Of a stretch of DNA of 29,914 nt, positions 1-20,697 are shown piece by piece. The notes beneath the pieces are model-generated. The model did no database searches, was not told where the DNA came from, and was given only the letters and a program-made list of their open reading frames with translations. This stretch comes from an uncultured Eubacterium sp. GTDB taxonomy: Bacteria > Bacillota_A > Clostridia > Lachnospirales > Lachnospiraceae. A program made the translations under genes and the position numbers. The stretch's first letter is position 1, and every line of letters starts with the position of its first letter. The stretch is taken from NCBI GenBank assembly GCA_947653505.1, contig CANTHI010000001.1, forward strand, positions 1 through 29,914. The letters run 5' to 3'.

Positions 1-1071
1 ATTGTATGCATCTTTACCGTCCATTTCAGCCCAGATCTTGCGCTGTTTTTTTTCCGCATTTTCGCGCCGTTTTACAGCATCATCCACACGCTGCTTAAAC
101 GTTCGCTCCTGTTCCGCCAGTTCCTTTTCGCGTTCCCGGATTTCAGTCACCCTTGCGTTAATGGCTGCATTATCCGCGTTTTGCTGCTGTGCAGCTTCAC
201 TCAGTCTGGCAGCTTCACCCGCAAGCCGCTCCTGTTCTTCCTTAATCTCTGCTTCTTTTTCTTCCAATTCACGCAATTTCAGATTGAAACGGTTTGTTGT
301 ATAAATTGCCTGATTTAACGCTGAATTGTACGACCGCCAACAGTCAACACCCATATGTCCGATCCGGCTTGCTTTTCTTTCCTGGTCAACAGTTCTGTCC
401 AGCTCCACGTCCTGGTACTTCTGAAGCTTTGCTTCCACAATATCCAGCCATTTCTCGCGGCAGGCAGCATCAAACGTTATCTTACGGTAATTAAAACGTC
501 CTTCCGGCTTATCTGGCTCCGGAAGATCGATGCCCGCCTGCTTCATAGACTTTTTCATGCCGGTATGCTTTACACCGTCCGAATCCGTCCAGTACCAAAC
601 GTATCTTTCATGAATATGTGGCGTAGATTCGTCCACATGCAGAACAGCACTGATCAGGATGATGTTATTACCATACTGCTGTTTCCTCCAGCGCGTAAAT
701 TCGATGTAGCAGTCCCATAGGTCATCCGGATCAATATAGCCGTTTATACTACCAACCTGTAGGATATTTTCAACCGCGCGGTGCCGTTCTGCCTGCATCC
801 ACTCTTCCATAGTCCGGATGTATTTGTAATTTCCTTTTTTCCGGTACTTTTTATTCTGCTGCTCCAATTCTTCTGTAAAATATTCATCATAAACCATCTT
901 TTCAGCAAGAACAACATCTGTCACACCCTTCTTACGTGTCCAGATTTTATTTTTGCTGGTCAAATCATAATTAATGTTACCCTTGTCACGTTTAACAGGA
1001 TAATGATTATTATGTTTAGCGTAGCCCTTGCCACTATGATAAGATGCTTTAATCTTGCGTATAGCTGCCAT
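1..1071 (-). CDS. MobV/Pre-family relaxase, C-terminus cut off by the window edge
   Basis: DNA relaxase that would nick oriT and start plasmid mobilization. The minus-strand frame is open from an ATG at 1069-1071 to position 1 with no stop (357 residues seen). Its start has a GAGGAG ribosome binding site at about 1081-1086. All three MobV signatures are visible: the N-terminal His region (H20-N21, matching the catalytic His of pMV158 MobM), N-Y-D-L at residues 34-37, and motif III H145-V-D-E-S-T-P-H-I-H154, the metal-binding site. Residues from about 240 on are a long charged coiled coil, as usual in this family. The gene lies downstream of a palindrome array and a related but catalytically dead gene on the same strand. 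The family call is secure; the C-terminal end is unknown. Confidence 0.93.
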   Translation of the reverse strand, partial: MAAIRKIKASYHSGKGYAKHNNHYPVKRDKGNINYDLTSKNKIWTRKKGVTDVVLAEKMVYDEYFTEELEQQNKKYRKKGNYKYIRTMEEWMQAERHRAVENILQVGSINGYIDPDDLWDCYIEFTRWRKQQYGNNIILISAVLHVDESTPHIHERYVWYWTDSDGVKHTGMKKSMKQAGIDLPEPDKPEGRFNYRKITFDAACREKWLDIVEAKLQKYQDVELDRTVDQERKASRIGHMGVDCWRSYNSALNQAIYTTNRFNLKLRELEEKEAEIKEEQERLAGEAARLSEAAQQQNADNAAINARVTEIREREKELAEQERTFKQRVDDAVKRRENAEKKQRKIWAEMDGKDAYN

Positions 1072-1139
1072 AGTGTATCACTCCTCGTTTTTTTCGATAT
1101 TTAATTTTCAAAGTTCAAAATTTTTTGGGATTTTTTTAG

Positions 1140-1247
1140 ATTTTCAATTTAGATTTTCAATTTAGATATTCAATGCGTTTCAAATTTAGTTCTTCAATGC
1201 GTTTCTTCTATCGTTTCAAATTTAATTCTTCACTGCGTTTCTTTATA
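1140..1247. repeat. Tandem AT-rich repeats in the relaxase leader
   Basis: Two adjacent 36-bp direct repeats (1176-1211 and 1212-1247) each contain CGTTTCAAATTT and CTGCGTTTCTT or a near match. They are preceded by two 13-bp copies of TTTTCAATTTAGA (about 1141-1166) and a partial unit. They sit just upstream of the relaxase start, where autoregulatory operators or oriT-proximal repeats would be expected. The function is inferred from position only. Confidence 0.8.
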
Positions 1248-1459
1248 TATTCTATATAATATCTATATGAATAGTATAATACACCCTACACAGTAATGCA
1301 ATACATTTTTTGATTTTTTGTAAATTTTTTCTGCCTCATTCTGAGCCAGAGTCGAAGCCGAAACTGCATTAAAACAACCCATCAGGTATCTAAAAGCATA
1401 AGTGCATGTGCCCCCGCATGTGTTCCATTCCTCCCGCTCCGATTTTGCAGCCGTAGACA

Positions 1460-1560: not shown

Positions 1561-1936
1561 AAAGCATACGTGTAAGTGACTTCAGGTCACTTCTCCATAT
1601 GCTTTAAGGAAACTCTTTTTTCAAAAAAGCATACGGGCAAGTGACCTGAAGTCACTTCTCCATATGCATTCGGGAGAGATATTTTTTACTCTAAAAGCAT
1701 ATGGACAGGTGACCTAGCGTAACCTGTCCATATGCTTTGCGACATCTGTTTTTAACCCAAATACATACGGAAAAGTAACCACAGGTAACTTGTCTGTATG
1801 CTTTAAGGACATATTTTTTGCATCCAAAAGCATAAGACAAAGTATCACGGAGACACCCTGTCATATGCATTACGGATATTTTTTTACGCAAAAAACATAT
1901 GGCAAAGTGCAGCGGAGACACAATGCCATATGTTTT
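1561..1936. repeat. Array of six 45-bp imperfect palindromes with T-rich spacers
   Basis: Units lie at 1561-1605, 1626-1670, 1694-1738, 1760-1804, 1827-1871 and 1892-1936 (start-to-start 65, 68, 66, 67, 65 bp). Each is two 20-nt arms around a 5-nt centre. Arm pairing is about 16/20, high, 19/20, 15/20, 15/20 and 16/20. The outer ends keep AAAGCATA/TATGCTTT-like sequence, while the inner arms differ between units yet still pair (for example GGACAGGT/ACCTGTCC in unit 3, TGGCA/TGCCA in unit 6). The 20-23 bp spacers are alike, each with a run of 5-7 T. It is not a CRISPR: the repeats are not identical and the spacers are not unique. It may be a nucleoprotein site (transfer, partition or incompatibility) or a structured RNA. 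Confidence 0.9.
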
Positions 1937-2315: not shown

Positions 2316-3056
2316 TCAGGATGCATTATCAATATCAAAGCCATAATCACAGCATGCGCCTGTCCAGAGCCTGCGAACATCACTGGTATATTCCATCATC
2401 GGATTATTTGTCCTGCTTTCCGGCTTATCCGGTTCAGGCAGTCCAAATCCAGCAGCTTCAAGGGCCCTGGTCATATTCACGCTCTCTACCCCATCATCAT
2501 CCGTATAAATGAATACATACCTCATACAGACATACGGAACGGATGAATGCTCGCTGTCATTGACTGTCCAGTCCAGGACAGGGATGTCCAGCCCTTTTTC
2601 CGCGTGGTATTTTTCAAGTTTCCCAAGAAATAACACAAAACATCCTGAAAGGTCTTCTTTTGTTACCGCGTCACCATTTTTTCCAACCTGGAAAACAGAT
2701 TCACGCGGCGAAGAATATTTAGAAGAACGGTAATCCTCTAATGTCATGAAATCATAACGTCCCTTTTCCCTGCGGAAACTGTTTTCCTTTTTGACATATG
2801 CCGCAAAATGTTTCTTATAAAAAGATTTCTCAAATGAAGCAGCTTCCCCGGAAAGTTCCGGAATTGCGTCTTCACTGAAATTGTCTAATTTATTCTGATA
2901 ATATACAAACTGTTCTTCCAGTTCTGGACGTCTGGATTCACTGGCAAATTTGAGTTCTTCTTTCAATACATTTACTTTTGCTTCAATCCATTCTTTTGAA
3001 TAACAGCATCTTTCATCAGCCATTTTCTGTTTTTTTGACTGGTATGTTGCATTCAT
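2316..3056 (-). CDS. Catalytically dead MobV relaxase paralog
   Basis: This 246-residue protein is clearly related to the intact relaxase at the left edge. Residues 75-232 align with relaxase residues 56-209. Shared blocks include EK...Y near 76-80, KG.Y near 98-101, QVG at 123-125, RYV at 179-181, the D-D-G-V region at 187-190 and LPEPDKPE at 206-213. In motif III the relaxase H145, D147, E148, H152 and H154 are S168, H170, S171, Y175 and C177 here, so the metal site is lost. The first 70 residues are an unrelated charged segment lacking the catalytic His and NYDL motifs. There is no long C-terminal coiled coil. The frame is intact, suggesting a kept non-catalytic role (DNA binding, dimer partner or transfer regulator) rather than a decayed gene. 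A strong leader and a possible 43-codon gene lie upstream. Confidence 0.85.
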   Translation of the reverse strand: MNATYQSKKQKMADERCCYSKEWIEAKVNVLKEELKFASESRRPELEEQFVYYQNKLDNFSEDAIPELSGEAASFEKSFYKKHFAAYVKKENSFRREKGRYDFMTLEDYRSSKYSSPRESVFQVGKNGDAVTKEDLSGCFVLFLGKLEKYHAEKGLDIPVLDWTVNDSEHSSVPYVCMRYVFIYTDDDGVESVNMTRALEAAGFGLPEPDKPESRTNNPMMEYTSDVRRLWTGACCDYGFDIDNAS

Positions 3057-8179: not shown

Positions 8180-8248
8180 TTAATACTTTTTATATAATAT
8201 GCATCATTAATTATGCATTATTAATACTTATAATATGTTAAGTATTAA
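8180..8248. repeat. Repeats between parA and its partner, candidate parS
   Basis: TTAATACTTTTTATATAA (8180-8197) is followed by ATGCAT pairs flanking CATTAATT, then an exact inverted repeat TTAATACTTA (8221-8230) / TAAGTATTAA (8239-8248) that overlaps the parA stop codon. The same core, AGTATTA or its complement, recurs at 7831-7851 and in the parA upstream region. Confidence 0.65.
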
Positions 8249-9018
8249 TCAATTTTAAATGCGATTTCCATATATGCTTTTGCAGCTTTTGCTTTTTGGT
8301 TTGCTAAAACAACAGGCTTTCCATCAGCTATCGCCCTGTTAACATCTGCCGAATCTCTTACGATTCCTAGTATGGTTGATTTGCTTTCCAAAAGAGTTAA
8401 AACATCTTTATTATCATTTAGTTTCATTTTATACATGGTAGCAATAATCCCATCTAATACGAGATCTGGATTCAGCGAGCGATCGCCATCACCACTCTGT
8501 ACATCTGCTATTGTATTCATTAAAGCTTTTAATCCTCTGTAGGCAAGGTATTCTGTTTTTACAGGAATAATCACCTCATCCGCAGCTACAAGAGCATTTA
8601 TAAGCAGGGTGCCAAGTTGAGGAGGGCAATCAATAAAAATGTAATCGAAATATGGCTTTAATGCTAAAACAGCCTTTCGTAATTGTACATCGCTATTACG
8701 TCCAACAACCAGTTTCGTTTCTGTAACCGCAAGATCAATATTGGAAGGTATAATAAAAAGGTTGTCCAAACCAGTGTTTTCTACATTGAATGCACATTCA
8801 GCCGGATTTGTTTTACCTGTGAATAATTTACATATATTATAATCTTCAAACTCTTCTGCATCCGGATTCATTCCGCAACTTATTGTTAGACTGGCTTGGG
8901 GGTCTAGGTCAATCATTAACACTTTCTTATTGATGATTGCTTTTGCTGCAGCTAAGTTATATGTTGTCGTTGTTTTTGCAACTCCGCCTTTTTGGTTTGC
9001 TATGGCGATGACTTTCAT
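8245..9018 (-). CDS. parA: ParA-family partition ATPase
   Basis: Walker-type ATPase that positions plasmid copies on the nucleoid so both daughters inherit one. The 257-residue product has the deviant Walker A box KGGVAKTTT at residues 10-18, the A' segment [10 protein letters not shown] near 34-43 and the Walker B-like region F-I-D-C-P-P-Q near 132-138. There is no N-terminal HTH extension, so it is the small type Ib/Soj form. AAGGAG precedes the start at good spacing. It is transcribed leftward together with the small partner gene 92 bases downstream. A long inverted repeat covers its promoter, pointing to autoregulation by the partition proteins. Confidence 0.95.
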
Positions 9019-9038: not shown

Positions 9039-9113
9039 AAAAAGTAATACTTATTATATAATTAATAACTCTTGCTATTATTTATTATATAATAAGTATT
9101 ACTTTTTAGTCAA
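9039..9113 (-). promoter_or_regulatory. parA promoter inside a perfect 24-bp inverted repeat
   Basis: The left arm (9039-9062, beginning AAAAAGTAATACTT) and right arm (9084-9107, ending AAGTATTACTTTTT) are exact inverted repeats around 21 bp. On the minus strand TTGACT (9113-9108) and TATAAT (9089-9084) form a promoter with an 18-bp spacer lying across the right arm. Bound protein would block it, so this is probably both operator and partition site. Confidence 0.75.
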
Positions 9114-13630: not shown

Positions 13631-13807
13631 ATGAAAGAAATGGATGAACAGGAACGATATTATATTGCACATGTTGTGGCTACAATGTCAATAGAAGATA
13701 TGACGCCGGACAGCCGGACTCTTGAAAACCTGGAGCAGATTGCTTCAGGAGATAAAACGGCAGATCAGATAATCGCCGAAATTGTAAAGGAGTACAAAAA
13801 TGGATAA
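13631..13807 (+). CDS. Short Fic antitoxin (VbhA-like)
   Basis: This 58-residue protein starts at ATG 13631 after AAAGGAGAAAAATG. It ends in ATGGATAA, an 8-base overlap with the Fic gene. Residues 28-33 read S-R-T-L-E-N, fitting the Fic inhibitory helix motif (S/T)xxxE(G/N) that blocks ATP binding in class I antitoxins. The C-terminal part, L-E-Q-I-A-S-G-D-K-T-A-D-Q-I-I-A-E-I, resembles the VbhA-type repeat (ladme..I.GeIsvdea). The order antitoxin then toxin with overlap is the normal arrangement. The call is made from motif and position. Confidence 0.8.
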   Translation: MKEMDEQERYYIAHVVATMSIEDMTPDSRTLENLEQIASGDKTADQIIAEIVKEYKNG

Positions 13808-14384
13808 AACATACTGCTATCCCGATACTGATACACTGATAAATAGATTGGATATACATAGCTCAAGCCGGTTGGTAGAGGCTGAAACTAGGATTGTATC
13901 AATCCGTCTGTACCAGATTCAGGTGCATTCGGTTCCTGGCAGCTTTGACTTTAATCACCTCTGCAGCATTCATTATCATGCATTCCAAGATATTTATGAC
14001 TGGGCAGGAAAACCGAGAACCGTAGATATTGCAAAGGGAAACAGCCTGTTTTGCCCGGCGTGGAATATATATGGTTATGCAGATGATGTGTTCCGGGATT
14101 TCTATAAAGACTGTATAAATTCAAGCTCCAGCCTGGAACAGTTTGTCAGGATATTTGCTGCACACTATGCCGATTTGAACGCTCTTCATCCGTTTCGTGA
14201 GGGCAATGGACGTTCACAAAGAGAATTTTGCAGGGAGTTGTGTCTGAAGTGCGGGTATTTATTCGACTTGACTCGTACTTGCAGGGATGAAATGCTGCAG
14301 GCAAGCATAAAATCTTTGGAAATAGGTGATAATACGGGGCTTGAGGCTATTTTTAGAAAATGCATCATACCTTTGCGTAATTGA
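13800..14384 (+). CDS. Fic-domain toxin (AMP transferase)
   Basis: This 194-residue Fic protein would transfer AMP (or a related nucleotide) to a target such as a gyrase or topoisomerase subunit, as VbhT-type toxins do. The active-site loop H130-P-F-R-E134-G-N-G-R138-S-Q-R141 is intact, matching HxFx(D/E)GNGRxxR. The upstream D-W-A-G-K-P-R-T-V near 67-75 (the flap region) and R-D-F near 99 are also present. No inhibitory (S/T)xxxEG is seen within the N-terminus, so control by the separate short antitoxin (class I) is likely. Length fits the single-domain class. A terminator follows. Confidence 0.93.
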   Translation: MDKTYCYPDTDTLINRLDIHSSSRLVEAETRIVSIRLYQIQVHSVPGSFDFNHLCSIHYHAFQDIYDWAGKPRTVDIAKGNSLFCPAWNIYGYADDVFRDFYKDCINSSSSLEQFVRIFAAHYADLNALHPFREGNGRSQREFCRELCLKCGYLFDLTRTCRDEMLQASIKSLEIGDNTGLEAIFRKCIIPLRN

Positions 14385-14538: not shown

Positions 14539-17500
14539 TTGACAACAAAATTAGAAAAATATATACAGATGGCGGGCAATACAGCAGCAGAGGTGACAAA
14601 GAACGCAAAGAATTGGACGGGATTCCTGGCTACTGCAGCAAACCTTTACAGATATTCATTTCCGGATCAGCTGCTGATCCATGCGCAGCGCTCAAATGTA
14701 AAGGCATGTGCTGATTTTGACGTATGGACAAAAAGAATGAAATACTATGTGCGTGGCGGATCTAAGGGCATTGCCCTGGTAAATATGAAAAATGGACATC
14801 CAAGCCTGCGTTATGTCTTTGATATAAAGGATACCGGCAGGAAAAAAGATTCCCAGAACCTATACTTATGGAAATACAAAGAAGAATATCAGGATATGCT
14901 CACAAAAGCACTTACGGATTGTTTTGGCATTGCCTGCAGCGACGGGCTTGTAGTTCAGCTTTGCCATATCGCCACCCATCTCGCAAAAGATTACTGGAAA
15001 AACTATCATCAGGACATTATTTGTGAAATTGAAGGGAGTATGCTGGAAGGTTTGGATGAACAAAGCTTACGCAGCCGGTTTTGCAAAGCTGCGGCTTTCA
15101 GTATTACATACATTCTTTTGCTACGATGCGGTTTTAATCCAAACAATTATCTATCTCCGGATGTATTTCAGGGAATATCTGATTTTAATACACAGCGTAT
15201 TACAAAAATGCTTGGCCATGTGGTCAGCGAGGCCAGTGGGAATGTGCTGCACCAGCTCGCTATTTTCATATTTGATTACGAGCGCCAGAAACAAGCTGCT
15301 GCACCACATAGCAATAAGCCTGTACAACAGGACAGTAATAAAAGTTCGAAAGAAGAAAACAAAAAGAAACCATCTTCATTTGTCATTACTGTAGATTCTG
15401 CGGAAAAGAAACAGGCTCCGCAGCCATCAATCAAAGACATATATGAGCAGTATAAGCCGATCGTAAAGGATTTCCTCTTAAAAGACAGAGCATACCTGAA
15501 TGCCTGCAAAAATTCTGATAAAGAGAATGCTTTTATGGAAGGATTGGAAGCTGTGAAACGTGCAGCACTTTCGATTAAAGACCTTGAATTTATGAAGATT
15601 TTCTATGATCTGGCTGAGTTCCATAACCGTATGCAGCAGGAGATACTTGCGGAAACGTATCCGGAACTTTCAAAAGTACAGGAAAAACATCAGGAAAAAG
15701 AAGAACCGGCATCTGTTTCTGCAAAGCCTGATTCAGAAGAAAACGCTGCAGAAGAACCGGAAGCTGTAGTTACAGAATCAGAAAAAAGTCCTGAATCTGA
15801 ACCGGAATCTCCTGATACAGGGACAGATTTCAAAGATAGTCCCGCCGCTGAACCGGAACAAGACACGCCGGATGCACAGCCAGCATCTAATCCGGATGCA
15901 GCATCTCCGCCGCAGCCAGCAATCGTTATAGATGAATCAGAAGTTGAGGAATTGCCACCGGCTTGTGCAACATCAAACTATCGTATCACTGACGACCATC
16001 TGGGAGAAGGAGGGCCAAAAGACAAGTACACTTTTAACATGTATGCGATAGTCATGTTGAAAAATGTGGAATCTGAAAAACGTGCTGCTACACCAGGAGA
16101 GCAGGAAGTTCTTGCGCATTACGCAGGATGGGGAGGCATTCCGGATGTATTTGACGCAGAAAAATCTGAATGGTCAAAAGAATATCAAGAACTCCAGTCA
16201 TATCTCACACCGGAGGAATATGCTTCTGCAAGATCATCGGTCTTAAATGCCCATTACACCAGCCCTGTGATTATCAGAGCAATCTATGCGGTTATCAGTA
16301 ACATGGGCTTTAAATCCGGAAATATCCTGGAGCCTGCCTGCGGCATAGGAAACTTTTTCGGATGTTTGCCAGACAGCATGAGCAAATCAAAGTTATACGG
16401 CGTGGAGCTGGACAGCATTTCAGGGCGCATCTCCAGACAACTGTATCAAAAAGCAAAAATCAGTGTGTGCGGATTTGAAAATACTGATTTTCCAGTCAAT
16501 TTCTTTGACGTTGCGATTGGCAATGTGCCTTTTGGTCAGTATAAGGTCAACGACCCGTCGTATAACCGATTCAATTTTGTAATTCATAATTATTTCTTTG
16601 CAAAATCTCTGGAGCTGGTACGTCCTGGCGGCATCCTGGCATTTATCACAAGCCGGTACACGTTTGATGCTCAAAATACAGATGTGCGCAGCTATCTGGC
16701 GGAGAGGGCCGATCTCTTGGGAGCTGTAAGACTTCCAAGAAATGCATTTCGTGCTAACGCTAATACAGACGTTGTATCAGACATTATATTCCTGCAAAAA
16801 CGCGATACGCCAGCTCTGGAGATGCCTGAATGGGTGCAGACAGAAAAAAATGCAGACGGTTTTCCTGTAAACAGATATTTTATAGCACATTCTGAAATGG
16901 TACTTGGTACGCCTGCTTCAAGAAGCACACAGTATGGTTCGGAATACACGGTGCTACCAATTCCTGATGCAGATCTTGGTGAGCAGCTTCGCGAGGCTGT
17001 ATCACATATTCACGGAAAATATAAGGCTGCTGTACATGAAGAAAATGAGGGTAACAACGAAACAGACATAATTCCAGCTGATCCGGATGTGAAAAACTAT
17101 TCATTTACAATGGCAAACGGAAACGTGTACTACCGTGAAAATTCAGTCATGAAAAAGATGGATCTAAGTGCAACAGCCAAATCCCGCGTCGTCGGTATGA
17201 TTGTACTGCGTGACTGTGTGCATCAGTTAATCAGCCTACAAATGGACGAACACGTATCAGATGATGAAATCAAAGCAAAACAGGACGCATTAAACCGCCT
17301 GTACGATGCATATACACGCAAAAACGGCCTGATTAACGACAGGGCGAACAGGCTTGCATTTGACAAAGATTCGTCATATTACTTGTTATGTTCCCTTGAA
17401 ATCCTGGATGAAAATGGCAAGCTGGAGCGCAAGGCAGATATGTTTACACGGCGAACAATAAAACAGCACAAATCAATCACCCACGTTGATACAGCATCCG

Positions 17501-20500
17501 AAGCTCTTGTCGTATCCATCGGCGAACGTGCCTGTGTAGATCTGGATTATATGTCAAAGCTTACCGGGAAGACCGAAGCAGAGATAACAAAAGAACTATA
17601 TGGAGTCATTTACAAAGATCCATTCAAAATTACCTGGCAGACAGCAGACGAATACTTATCTGGAAATGTCAGGAAGAAGCTCCGCCAGGCAAAAGCAGCT
17701 GCAGAACAAGACCCGACATATCAGATCAATGTCGAAGCACTTGAAAAAGCACAGCCGAAAGACCTTGACGCATCGGAGATCGAAGTGCGAATTGGTGCGA
17801 CTTGGATTGATAAGTCTTATATTCAACAGTTCATGACCGAAATTCTTAAAACTCCTGTTAATCTGCGTAATAAAGTTAAAGTCAACTATTCATCAGCAAC
17901 TGCACAGTGGTTTATCAGTAATAAAAACGCTATCAATTACAACGATGTAGCGGCCTATACCACGTATGGAACAGACAGGGCCAATGCTTACCGGATTCTG
18001 GAGGAATCGCTTAATTTGCGCGATATTCGCATTTACGACACAATCGAAGACGAAAACGGTAAAGAAAAACGCATCTTGAATGCAAAACAGACCACGCTTG
18101 CATCGCAAAAGCAGCAGGCATTACGGGATGCATTTCGCGATTGGATATTTCAAGATCCGGAACGCCGTCGGACATTGGTAAAGCAATATAACGAGTTAAT
18201 GAACAGCACCAGACCGCGTGAATACGATGGCAGTCATATAGTATTTGATGGCATCAATCCTTCAATCACTCTGCAACCGCACCAGGTTAATGCCATTGCA
18301 CACATCCTATACGGTGGCAACACGCTTCTTGCTCATGAAGTTGGGGCCGGAAAGACGTTCGAAATGGTTGCAGCCGTCATGGAGGCAAAGCGCCTTGGCT
18401 TATGCCATAAGTCGATATTTGTTGTACCCAACCACTTAACGGAGCAGACTGCAGCCGAGTTTTTACGCTTATATCCTGCTGCTAATATCTTAGTTACGAC
18501 CAAAAAAGATTTTGAAACTGCCAATCGTAAGAAATTTTGCGCCCGTATCGCGACCAGCGATATAGATGCAGTTATCATCGGTCACTCGCAATTCGAGAAA
18601 ATCCCACTCAGCCGGGAACGTCAGGAAAGACTGATCGAAGAGCAGATAGATGAAATCACAGACGGTATCCGGGAAGTGAAAGCCAGCGGAGGCGAACGAT
18701 TTACAGTCAAACAGCTTGAGATAACGAAGAAAAACCTGGAGACACGTCTGGAGAAGTTGCAGGGTAATTATCGCAAGGACGATGTTGTGACGTTCGAGGA
18801 GCTTGGAATTGACATGATGTTTGTTGACGAAAGCGATATGTACAAAAATCTGTTTTTATATACCAAAATGCGCAATGTTGCAGGTCTTTCTACAGCAGAT
18901 GCTCAAAAATCAAGTGATATGTTTGCAAAGTGCAGATACATGGACGAAATCACAGGCGGACGCGGTGTTGTATTCGCAACGGGCACACCGATCAGCAACA
19001 GCATGACGGAAATGTACAGCATCCAGCGTTATCTCCAGTTTGATAAATTACAGTCTATGGGAATGGCACATTTTGATTGCTGGGCATCCCGGTTCGGTGA
19101 GACAGTTACGGCACTGGAATTGGCTCCAGAAGGAACCGGATACCGGGCACGGACGCGCTTTGCAAAATTCTTTAATCTTCCAGAATTGATGCAAATGTTC
19201 CGCGAAATTGCTGATATTAAAACATCGGATCAGCTCAATTTGCCTGTACCAGAAGTGGAATACCACACTGTCGTATCACAGCCTACAGAACACCAAAAAG
19301 AGATGGTCAAAGAGCTTTCCAAGCGTGCAGAAAAAGTACACAAAGGTATCGACTCCAGTATCGATAATATGCTTAAAATCACATCGGATGGCAGAAAACT
19401 TGGCTTAGATCAACGCATCATCAATCCAATGCTGCCGGACGAGCCTGGAACCAAAGTTAATATGTGCGTAGCTAACGTCTTGCAGCAATGGCGGGACGGT
19501 GATGTAGACAGACTTACACAATTAATCTTTTGCGATATTTCGACACCAACCGGAAAGCAGGCCAATCCTGATACTAATTCCCGGTTTACAAATATCTATG
19601 AAGACATTAAAACAAAGCTAATCGCTGGTGGCATGGTTCCAGAGCAGATTGTGTTTATACATAGTGCAAAGAGTGATGTTCAGAAAAAAGAACTTTTCGC
19701 CAAAGTGCGCAGCGGACAGGTGCGTGTCCTGATCGGTTCTACACAAAAGATGGGTGCAGGCACAAATATTCAAGACCGGTTGATTGCATTACATGATTTA
19801 GATTGCCCGTGGCGCCCAAGAGATCTGATTCAACGTGCTGGCAGAATCGTAAGGAGAGGTAATGAAAATCCGAAAGTGCATATTTACCGGTACGTAACAG
19901 AAAACACATTTGATGCGTACCTTTGGCAAACCGTTGAGAACAAACAGAAGTTTATCTCTCAAATCATGACAAGTAAATCCCCAGTACGCTCATGCGAAGA
20001 CGTAGACGAAACGGTGCTGTCATTTGCTGAAATCAAAGCTTTATGCGCTGGAGACCCAAGAATTAAGGAGCGCATGGATCTTGAGCTGGAAGTATCACGC
20101 CTGCGGATCATGAAAGCTGATCATCAGAGCAAATTATATCGCATGGAAGATGATGTGATGAAGCATTATCCAGAACAAATCAAAGAGGCACAAGGCTTTA
20201 TTACAGGAATGGAAACCGACATTCAGACCTTAAAGCAGAATGTGCGCCCGGATGGAGAATTTGCAGGCATGATTGTCAATGGAATGACTTATACGGACAA
20301 AGAAAAGGCCGGAACAGCTTTGATTGACGCTTGCAAAGATGTAGCTAGTCTGGAACCGGTTGAACTTGGCAGTTACCTGGGATTTTCGTTGTCTGTGAAA
20401 TTCAGCGGATTCGTACATAAAATCATCATCAAAGGCGCTGTATCTTATCAGGTTGATCTTGGCGGTGATATTTTTGGCAATATTACCAGAATTAATAACG

Positions 20501-20697
20501 CACTTGGCAAGATAGATGCTCAGCTTGCAGCTTACAAAGCGAAACACGATAATCTGCAGCAGCAGATGGACGCAGCCAAAGTTGAAATCAATAAGCCATT
20601 CCTGTACGAAGACGAGTTAGCACAGAAATCAGCACGCCTTGCAGAGCTTGACGCACAGCTAAACATCGGCGCACCAGATCCACAGACTGCAGCGTAG
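14539..20697 (+). CDS. Giant N6-adenine methyltransferase-SNF2 helicase protein
   Basis: The 2052-residue product starts at TTG 14539 after AAAGGAGGG. Order: an N-terminal domain (1-110) with R-Y-S-F-P-D-Q-L-L-I-H-A-Q and G-S-K-G-I-A-L; an acidic Pro/Glu-rich linker (about 270-475); a DNA methyltransferase with motif I LEPACGIGNFF (about 597-607) and catalytic N662-V-P-F-G (N-P-P-F type); and an SF2/SNF2 ATPase. The ATPase has Walker A V-G-A-G-K-T (1268-1273), V-D-E-S-D (1429-1433), G-T-P-I-S-N-S and motif VI Q1765-R-A-G-R-I-V-R-R-G. A coiled-coil region follows it. Such proteins are widespread in clostridial plasmids and conjugative elements and may protect incoming DNA. No nuclease motif was seen. 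PcfK and PcfJ lie downstream. Confidence 0.92.
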   Translation: MTTKLEKYIQMAGNTAAEVTKNAKNWTGFLATAANLYRYSFPDQLLIHAQRSNVKACADFDVWTKRMKYYVRGGSKGIALVNMKNGHPSLRYVFDIKDTGRKKDSQNLYLWKYKEEYQDMLTKALTDCFGIACSDGLVVQLCHIATHLAKDYWKNYHQDIICEIEGSMLEGLDEQSLRSRFCKAAAFSITYILLLRCGFNPNNYLSPDVFQGISDFNTQRITKMLGHVVSEASGNVLHQLAIFIFDYERQKQAAAPHSNKPVQQDSNKSSKEENKKKPSSFVITVDSAEKKQAPQPSIKDIYEQYKPIVKDFLLKDRAYLNACKNSDKENAFMEGLEAVKRAALSIKDLEFMKIFYDLAEFHNRMQQEILAETYPELSKVQEKHQEKEEPASVSAKPDSEENAAEEPEAVVTESEKSPESEPESPDTGTDFKDSPAAEPEQDTPDAQPASNPDAASPPQPAIVIDESEVEELPPACATSNYRITDDHLGEGGPKDKYTFNMYAIVMLKNVESEKRAATPGEQEVLAHYAGWGGIPDVFDAEKSEWSKEYQELQSYLTPEEYASARSSVLNAHYTSPVIIRAIYAVISNMGFKSGNILEPACGIGNFFGCLPDSMSKSKLYGVELDSISGRISRQLYQKAKISVCGFENTDFPVNFFDVAIGNVPFGQYKVNDPSYNRFNFVIHNYFFAKSLELVRPGGILAFITSRYTFDAQNTDVRSYLAERADLLGAVRLPRNAFRANANTDVVSDIIFLQKRDTPALEMPEWVQTEKNADGFPVNRYFIAHSEMVLGTPASRSTQYGSEYTVLPIPDADLGEQLREAVSHIHGKYKAAVHEENEGNNETDIIPADPDVKNYSFTMANGNVYYRENSVMKKMDLSATAKSRVVGMIVLRDCVHQLISLQMDEHVSDDEIKAKQDALNRLYDAYTRKNGLINDRANRLAFDKDSSYYLLCSLEILDENGKLERKADMFTRRTIKQHKSITHVDTASEALVVSIGERACVDLDYMSKLTGKTEAEITKELYGVIYKDPFKITWQTADEYLSGNVRKKLRQAKAAAEQDPTYQINVEALEKAQPKDLDASEIEVRIGATWIDKSYIQQFMTEILKTPVNLRNKVKVNYSSATAQWFISNKNAINYNDVAAYTTYGTDRANAYRILEESLNLRDIRIYDTIEDENGKEKRILNAKQTTLASQKQQALRDAFRDWIFQDPERRRTLVKQYNELMNSTRPREYDGSHIVFDGINPSITLQPHQVNAIAHILYGGNTLLAHEVGAGKTFEMVAAVMEAKRLGLCHKSIFVVPNHLTEQTAAEFLRLYPAANILVTTKKDFETANRKKFCARIATSDIDAVIIGHSQFEKIPLSRERQERLIEEQIDEITDGIREVKASGGERFTVKQLEITKKNLETRLEKLQGNYRKDDVVTFEELGIDMMFVDESDMYKNLFLYTKMRNVAGLSTADAQKSSDMFAKCRYMDEITGGRGVVFATGTPISNSMTEMYSIQRYLQFDKLQSMGMAHFDCWASRFGETVTALELAPEGTGYRARTRFAKFFNLPELMQMFREIADIKTSDQLNLPVPEVEYHTVVSQPTEHQKEMVKELSKRAEKVHKGIDSSIDNMLKITSDGRKLGLDQRIINPMLPDEPGTKVNMCVANVLQQWRDGDVDRLTQLIFCDISTPTGKQANPDTNSRFTNIYEDIKTKLIAGGMVPEQIVFIHSAKSDVQKKELFAKVRSGQVRVLIGSTQKMGAGTNIQDRLIALHDLDCPWRPRDLIQRAGRIVRRGNENPKVHIYRYVTENTFDAYLWQTVENKQKFISQIMTSKSPVRSCEDVDETVLSFAEIKALCAGDPRIKERMDLELEVSRLRIMKADHQSKLYRMEDDVMKHYPEQIKEAQGFITGMETDIQTLKQNVRPDGEFAGMIVNGMTYTDKEKAGTALIDACKDVASLEPVELGSYLGFSLSVKFSGFVHKIIIKGAVSYQVDLGGDIFGNITRINNALGKIDAQLAAYKAKHDNLQQQMDAAKVEINKPFLYEDELAQKSARLAELDAQLNIGAPDPQTAA

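Follow-up and report, generated by a model that had tools for sequence, protein, structure and literature searches.

The window, a stretch of 29,914 nucleotides from an uncultured Eubacterium sp. (GCA_947653505.1, contig CANTHI010000001.1), contains a real, strand-specific array of hairpins beside a predicted MobV oriT, and the array is present in the only relative found, the Eubacterium MAG contig CANDMV010000270.1 (L001). The array likely has a role in transfer, as an earlier note on this DNA had suggested, given that it abuts the predicted oriT and is kept in L001; nothing was seen that points to the incompatibility or copy control that the same note had also offered. The preferred reading, which is a tentative one, is that the array resembles a single-strand origin (sso) and would act through folding of the mob-sense strand.

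Units, pitch and linkers of the array

The array occupies 1561-1936 and is composed of six 45-bp units, which are numbered on the minus (mob-sense) strand from the unit closest to oriT, unit 1 (1561-1605), through units 2 (1626-1670), 3 (1694-1738), 4 (1760-1804) and 5 (1827-1871) to the most distant, unit 6 (1892-1936). Watson-Crick pairs form at 16 of 20 positions in units 1, 2 and 6, at 15 in units 4 and 5, and at 19 in unit 3, the only unit that is nearly perfectly paired. The outer AAAGCATA and the inner AGTGAC of the units are conserved in sequence, and the middle is variable. Successive starts are separated by 65, 68, 66, 67 and 65 bp (mean 66.2), in agreement with the six units at a pitch of about 66 bp described in the earlier note, and the T5-T7 tract that it placed in every spacer is found on the plus strand of all five linkers (1606-1625, 1671-1693, 1739-1759, 1805-1826 and 1872-1891), corresponding to A5-A7 on the mob strand. 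On the mob strand, the linkers resemble those of L001. Helically phased bends, which the note had proposed as well, were rejected, since the pitch amounts to 6.2-6.5 helical turns at 10.5 bp and is not integral.

The six units are real and exceed chance. Ten mononucleotide shuffles of the whole window yielded two 45-mers in total with at least 15 Watson-Crick pairs, and the real window holds six further 45-mers outside the array that likewise reach 15 pairs; the array folds with z-scores of -19.9 (mob strand, minus) and -12.3 (plus strand). Unit 1 scores 60.8 bits on the minus strand and 49.6 bits on the plus strand against model R1, which itself contains unit 1. No further R1 unit was found elsewhere in the window, and none that was convincing in 30 loci.

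Covariation and strand preference

Covariation was assessed on nine units, comprising the six of the window and three of L001. Seven of the 20 pairs have changed on both sides, and paired cells amount to 87.2%, compared with 83.0 +/- 1.6 in shuffles, of which 4 of 500 were equally high. When whole arms were swapped among the six window units (720 permutations), 0.7% matched the real pairing with Watson-Crick pairs only and 3.1% paired equally well or better once G-T was counted; positions 12 and 13 of the unit are paired in just four and five of the nine units, respectively. The covariation is real yet modest, and is taken as support and not as proof because the kinship of the copies breaks the independence of the test. 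The covarying palindromes of the earlier note are thus upheld by the two-sided changes, but the effect is modest, and near-perfect pairing is confined to unit 3.

The two strands differ in how well they pair. In a fixed 20-bp register on the mob-sense strand, the nine units contain 19 G-T wobbles and 4 A-C mismatches, at 7 to 3 in the window and 12 to 1 in L001. RNA energies favour the mob strand in eight of the nine units (L001 units taken with one extra base), unit 4 being the sole unit with better folding of the plus strand, and DNA energies favour it in six of nine with small margins, so that the wobble excess is stronger evidence of RNA than of DNA. With a hairpin finder that is blind to strand and trims stems, G-T and A-C counts were 5 and 4 in the window and 7 and 4 in L001, below the 19 to 4 of the fixed register. 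None of the window units has a GNA loop. Selection on structure, which the earlier note had deduced, is supported by the presence of the array in L001 and by the better pairing of the mob-sense strand. A promoter-like pair within the units, GTGAC-16-TATGCT, was set aside as evidence, since the unit palindrome reads alike on both strands. Classical terminators were also rejected, with 2 in 2.4 kb compared with 2.1 in shuffles, one of them falling in unit 5.

Predicted oriT and mob promoter

A predicted oriT lies at 1455-1504 on the minus strand and is built of nested inverted repeats, in the order GCAATGG, the hairpin TTTTGGGA...TCCCAAAA and CAGTATTGCG/TTACTG (the slash marking the predicted nick), a plan that runs from 1504 to 1458. 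In its sequence plan it has the features of a MOBV-type oriT, namely an inner hairpin within a longer repeat, a G/T at the 3' foot, and a position upstream of the relaxase gene. The nick is predicted between 1464 and 1463 of the minus strand because the MOBV prototype, pMV158, in which the mob-coding strand is the one transferred, is nicked at a G/T where its nested repeats have their foot (PMC5863519), and because a MOBV IME of group B streptococci is nicked at GTGCG/T (PMC5090054). By analogy with pMV158, the mob-sense strand of the window is presumably the transferred strand. The array sits just 5' of the predicted oriT; on the mob strand, 97 nt separate its edge from the predicted nick.

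A block that is highly conserved with L001 (1392-1560, minus strand) begins at the array edge, spans oriT and ends in a lone half-unit (1389-1413, minus strand), which is a right arm on the mob strand, is 80% identical to a stretch of unit 3, and is present in L001 too. The nic-like sequence is duplicated in the window: one copy belongs to oriT (1458-1471), and the second, GTATTGCATTACTGTGTAGGG (1284-1304, minus strand), overlaps the -35 of the likely mob promoter in an operator-like position, with a similar copy at the corresponding place in L001. Self-repression has been described for MobM (PMC5863519), and regulation of this kind would fit with the second copy at the mob promoter. The likely mob promoter itself (1273-1301, minus strand; TTGCAT-17-TATACT, 8 of 12) is downstream of the array and was picked, as one of 18 matches of at least 8 (TG counted) in 1229 nt, because L001 carries TTGCGT-17-TATAAT at the corresponding place. 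Between the likely promoter and the mob start, the leaders of the window (1135-1217, minus strand) and of L001 (541-658) contain tandem repeats of about 13 bp of the ATTGAAGAA type, possibly operator or leader repeats.

Relaxase and paralog

The gene at 1-1071 (minus strand), which is truncated by the window start, encodes a MobV/Pre-type relaxase. Its product matches Mob_Pre (7e-07, 29.7 bits, cut-off 25.5) and keeps HVDESTPHIH (motif HxDExxPHxH), and is called MobV-like by Pfam and motif rather than by the NCBIfam MobV equivalog, since it scores 31.6 bits against a curated cut-off of 100. An identical database protein (P0001) occurs on 16 contigs, the largest of 76,657 bases, and the closer relaxases among the protein matches (P0002-P0021) are 59-88% identical. 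The array lies, as the earlier note had placed it, between this relaxase and a dead paralog (2316-3056, minus strand), a relaxase-like protein that is 30% identical to the relaxase over 158 aa and lacks the catalytic motif, its HxDExTPH stretch reading VNDSEHSSVPY. The paralog is a full protein of 246 aa in two relatives, which are 78-79% identical, and protein searches returned three matches for it, compared with 1353 for the relaxase.

Distribution of the array

L001, the one DNA relative found, encodes a relaxase that is 74% identical to that of the window and has three units, which lie upstream of mob at 53-231 with a pitch of 66 and 68. The block corresponding to 1392-1560 of the window is situated between array and mob in L001 too, with the half-unit at its end in both. 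The units are 88% alike within L001 and 69% alike between L001 and the window, suggesting that the hairpin persists as copy number and sequence drift. The earlier note had regarded absence of the array from close relatives as telling against it; the array is kept beside mob in L001, this being a single relative.

Among 13 genomes of the genus and 392 of the order, which are samples of larger groups, array DNA was found only in G001, the genome of L001. Relaxase matches were present in 78 of 397 family genomes and, at 1e-30, in 4 of 391 class genomes, again samples of larger groups, and the only close relaxase among these was once more that of G001. Sets of plasmids and phages contained no DNA relative over the array, the single match being a recombinase gene, and viral contigs contained neither a relaxase relative nor a match to the oriT block. 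Nine matches of viral contigs to a loose array pattern were rejected; they have no like array in their flanks and look like chance.

Hairpin-rich stretches ahead of oriT in other MobV loci

Thirty-two MobV loci comprise 21 with an oriT motif (two duplicate pairs among them) and 11 without the motif, which were left uncounted. The motif, CCCAGT-hairpin-GTACTGGG/TATTAC, is located upstream of mob in loci that all come from genomes of the family of L001, except L045, which is from the class sample; the window follows the same plan with different letters. Among 394 family genomes, 23 contain the core GTACTGGGTATTAC, and the reversed control gave a single match. Raw folding energy, which tracks base composition, is lower on the mob strand in all 21 motif loci over a 355-nt stretch ending 25 nt into the motif. 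Dinucleotide-shuffle z-scores over about 200 nt ahead of the oriT hairpin are lower on the mob strand in 15 of the 21, with means of -3.7 on the mob strand and -2.9 on the other, compared with -0.4 and -0.6 inside relaxase genes.

An enlarged set of 48 oriT hits, from which hits with short flanks or without a CCCA partner had been excluded beforehand, was reduced by removal of duplicates to 23 non-redundant loci that are distantly related to the window. Hairpins cover a mean of 0.49 (range 0.27-0.72) of the 260 nt ahead of the oriT hairpin, compared with 0.23 directly past oriT (21 loci), 0.23 at a greater distance upstream (23 loci) and 0.21 in later pieces (122 pieces); two loci are near background, at 0.27 and 0.28. 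In 50-nt bins, coverage is about 0.25 far upstream and rises to 0.64 between -100 and -50 and to 0.68 in the last bin, which contains the oriT hairpin itself; in the bins that follow it is 0.38, 0.32 and then 0.19, with 0.18-0.41 beyond these.

The stretches ahead of oriT contain 101 hairpins, compared with 41.8 +/- 5.3 in 60 shuffles, and their sequences differ from those of the window units. Mismatches comprise 106 G-T and 31 A-C, a G-T share of 0.77 that exceeds all 60 shuffles (mean 0.60, highest 0.73); in three control regions the ratios are 33 to 25, 44 to 31 and 194 to 130, a share of 0.57-0.60. G-T outnumbers A-C in 19 of the 23 loci, A-C outnumbers G-T in three, and the two are equal in one. 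Triloops close 37 of the 101 hairpins, including 15 GNA and no TNC, compared with 0.6 and 0.1 in shuffles, and a GNA triloop is present in 15 of the 23 loci. None of these counts represents independent events, because the loci are related to one another. Tetraloops number seven, none of which is GNRA by the usual definition, with the possible exception of GGCA (three). A simple scan of the 450 nt ahead of oriT, where the sequence is GC-rich, gave no promoter-like match in 16 of the 23 loci. Taken together, the loci show that the mob-sense strand is the one that folds, whatever its sequence, and since the hairpin rows of distant relatives have other sequences at the same place and on the same strand, it is suggested that the transferred strand itself must fold. 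A recurring unit type was also observed in L046 (1004-1120) and L015 (1075-1171), where a shared tandem repeat of 49-52 bp with the hairpins AAGGCAGAGCCTT and GGAGCAAGACTCC sits ahead of the oriT of two MobV genes.

A proposed sso-like element and alternative explanations

The explanation preferred here, with confidence that falls somewhat short of even, is that the array is an sso-like folding element of the transferred (mob-sense) strand, for which we infer the strand, the action as single-stranded DNA and the priming. Since it is directly 5' of oriT, the array would come last in the element, both in becoming single-stranded and in entering the recipient. In the recipient, the mob-sense strand would fold into a row of hairpins that would recruit host RNA polymerase or primase, and the recruited enzyme would begin second-strand synthesis at the array. 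Known sso regions (ssoA, ssoU, ssoT, ssoW and ssoL of plasmids, and sso1 of ICEBs1) are orientation-specific, are active when single-stranded and form stem-loops on one strand near oriT or mob (PMC4595007), and in most rolling-circle plasmids they are upstream of the nick origin, or dso (PMC4595007, PMC5703833, PMC5090054). Priming of ssoA is by RNA polymerase (PMC5703833), and a MOBV mobilisation module has been described as consisting of oriT, mob and a putative ssoA (PMC5090054). The array likewise has stem-loops on the strand that, judging from pMV158, would become single-stranded, and it lies close upstream of the predicted nick.

With a little more caution still, we suggest that MobV relatives may share a previously undescribed hairpin-rich segment of the transferred strand, set against the 5' side of oriT and marked by free sequence, strand-specific folding and GNA triloops (15 of 23 loci). 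Such segments could form a new class, either of conjugative single-strand origins or of transfer-end signals, and the window would be a regular, six-unit case of it. Action as single-stranded DNA is favoured by the GNA loops, by the position right up to oriT, by the scarcity of tetraloops and by the few promoter-like signals in the other loci. The d(GNA) triloops are a stable family of DNA loops, and their interaction has been likened to that of RNA GNRA loops (PMC5815330).

Transcription of the array in the mob direction, to yield a structured RNA comparable to the sgm-sRNA of SGI1, is a less likely explanation, albeit one that would fit the G-U type pairs on the mob strand of the window, L001 and other loci, and the clear separation of the strands by RNA and not by DNA parameters. 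A source of transcription could be sought in the extended -10 box TGTTATAAT of L001, which is 14 nt before the first unit (chance 0.0043 in 52 nt), or in the weak AGTACA-17-TATATT (8 of 12) ahead of unit 6 in the window. However, the L001 box lacks a good -35 (there is a TTGCTT, with a spacing of 15) and is absent from both promoter scans, 8-of-12 matches are common (18 in 1229 nt), the likely mob promoter is downstream of the array, and the simple scan of GC-rich sequence left 16 of the 23 other loci without a promoter-like match ahead of oriT. The loops also argue against RNA, with 37 triloops and 7 tetraloops ahead of oriT in the 23 loci; many triloops and few tetraloops are more the habit of DNA than of RNA. 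No Rfam family was matched at gathering score. SGI1, for its part, needs its own sgm-sRNA, which is made beside oriT (PMC9299015).

Conservation of the outer AAAGCATA and inner AGTGAC around a variable middle is what would be expected if the units were double-stranded binding sites, or dyads, for the relaxase, the dead paralog or an accessory relaxosome protein, and the lone half-unit kept past oriT in both the window and L001, together with the full-length form of the paralog in two relatives, points the same way. A dyad has no preferred strand, yet G-T exceeds A-C on the mob strand; the hairpins ahead of oriT in other loci differ in sequence, and the paralog has far fewer protein matches than the relaxase, so that binding sites are considered improbable. 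Least probable, at a level that we regard as slight, is a functionless by-product of tandem duplication and arm-to-arm copying in a region that is often single-stranded. The likeness of units within L001 (0.88) compared with that to the window units (0.69) suggests that arrays may be re-homogenised. Arm-templated repair can make both arms match, and C-to-T change in exposed single-stranded DNA could yield G-T pairs. Against a by-product stand the change of seven of 20 pairs on both sides and the occurrence, at the same place in MobV loci, of hairpin-rich stretches with other sequences and polar loops.

Relation to known systems

Rfam gave no match at gathering score in the window or in 20 MobV loci, microRNA-type matches being rejected as far below gathering scores, and no such array was found described for MobV elements in the literature searched, most subscription papers being beyond reach. 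The earlier note's statement that no named element is of this kind therefore holds for Rfam and for this literature, but the nearest kind, an sso near oriT or mob, has been described. Structured DNA near an origin is in itself no new idea; what is new is the regular array and its generality. In conjugative plasmids, the single-stranded promoters Frpo/ssi are likewise formed by the folded transferred strand, which is recognised in the recipient, and belong to the leading region. The array, in contrast, would be trailing, and one of its stems, at 20 bp, is probably too short for both a -35 and a -10.

The array is likened to sso regions by placement and folding, with priming as the expected activity, and differs from them in being a regular tandem row of three to six like units. 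Its location also differs from that of the putative ssoA of IMESag-rpsI, which is downstream of mob (PMC5090054), and from that of the sso of ICEBs1, which is downstream of oriT (PMC4595007). The oriT of pMV158, which is served by MobM (MOBV1), resembles that of the window in its nested inverted repeats, in its G/T nick at the foot and in its position upstream of the relaxase gene, whereas it has three overlapping short repeats, and the accessible part of its description mentions no array (PMC5863519); the window relaxase departs from the MOBV1 family in scoring below the NCBI MobV cut-off. The sgm-sRNA of SGI1 is, like the array, encoded beside oriT and is needed for transfer, but it is a processed sRNA of a tyrosine-recombinase-type mobilisation system, for which the accessible text describes no tandem array (PMC9299015).

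As of 2015, virtually nothing was known of how the transferred single-stranded DNA of ICEs becomes double-stranded (PMC4595007). A strand-specific hairpin segment fixed beside MobV origins of Clostridia-type bacteria would be a cis element open to deletion, reversal or re-pairing in the laboratory. It would also aid in locating oriT, with its strand, in elements from metagenomes, and would put to the test whether MOBV modules have an sso region as standard.

Other features of the window

A near-perfect palindrome of 61 nt (9043-9103) is found directly ahead of parA (8245-9018, minus strand), and a 14-bp direct repeat (8198-8225) directly after it; both appear centromere-like or operator-like. 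The gene at 14539-20697, whose product of 2052 aa has domains of Eco57I-type methylase and of SNF2/helicase, is followed by PcfK-like and PcfJ-like genes, and a Fic/DOC-family protein is encoded at 13800-14384.
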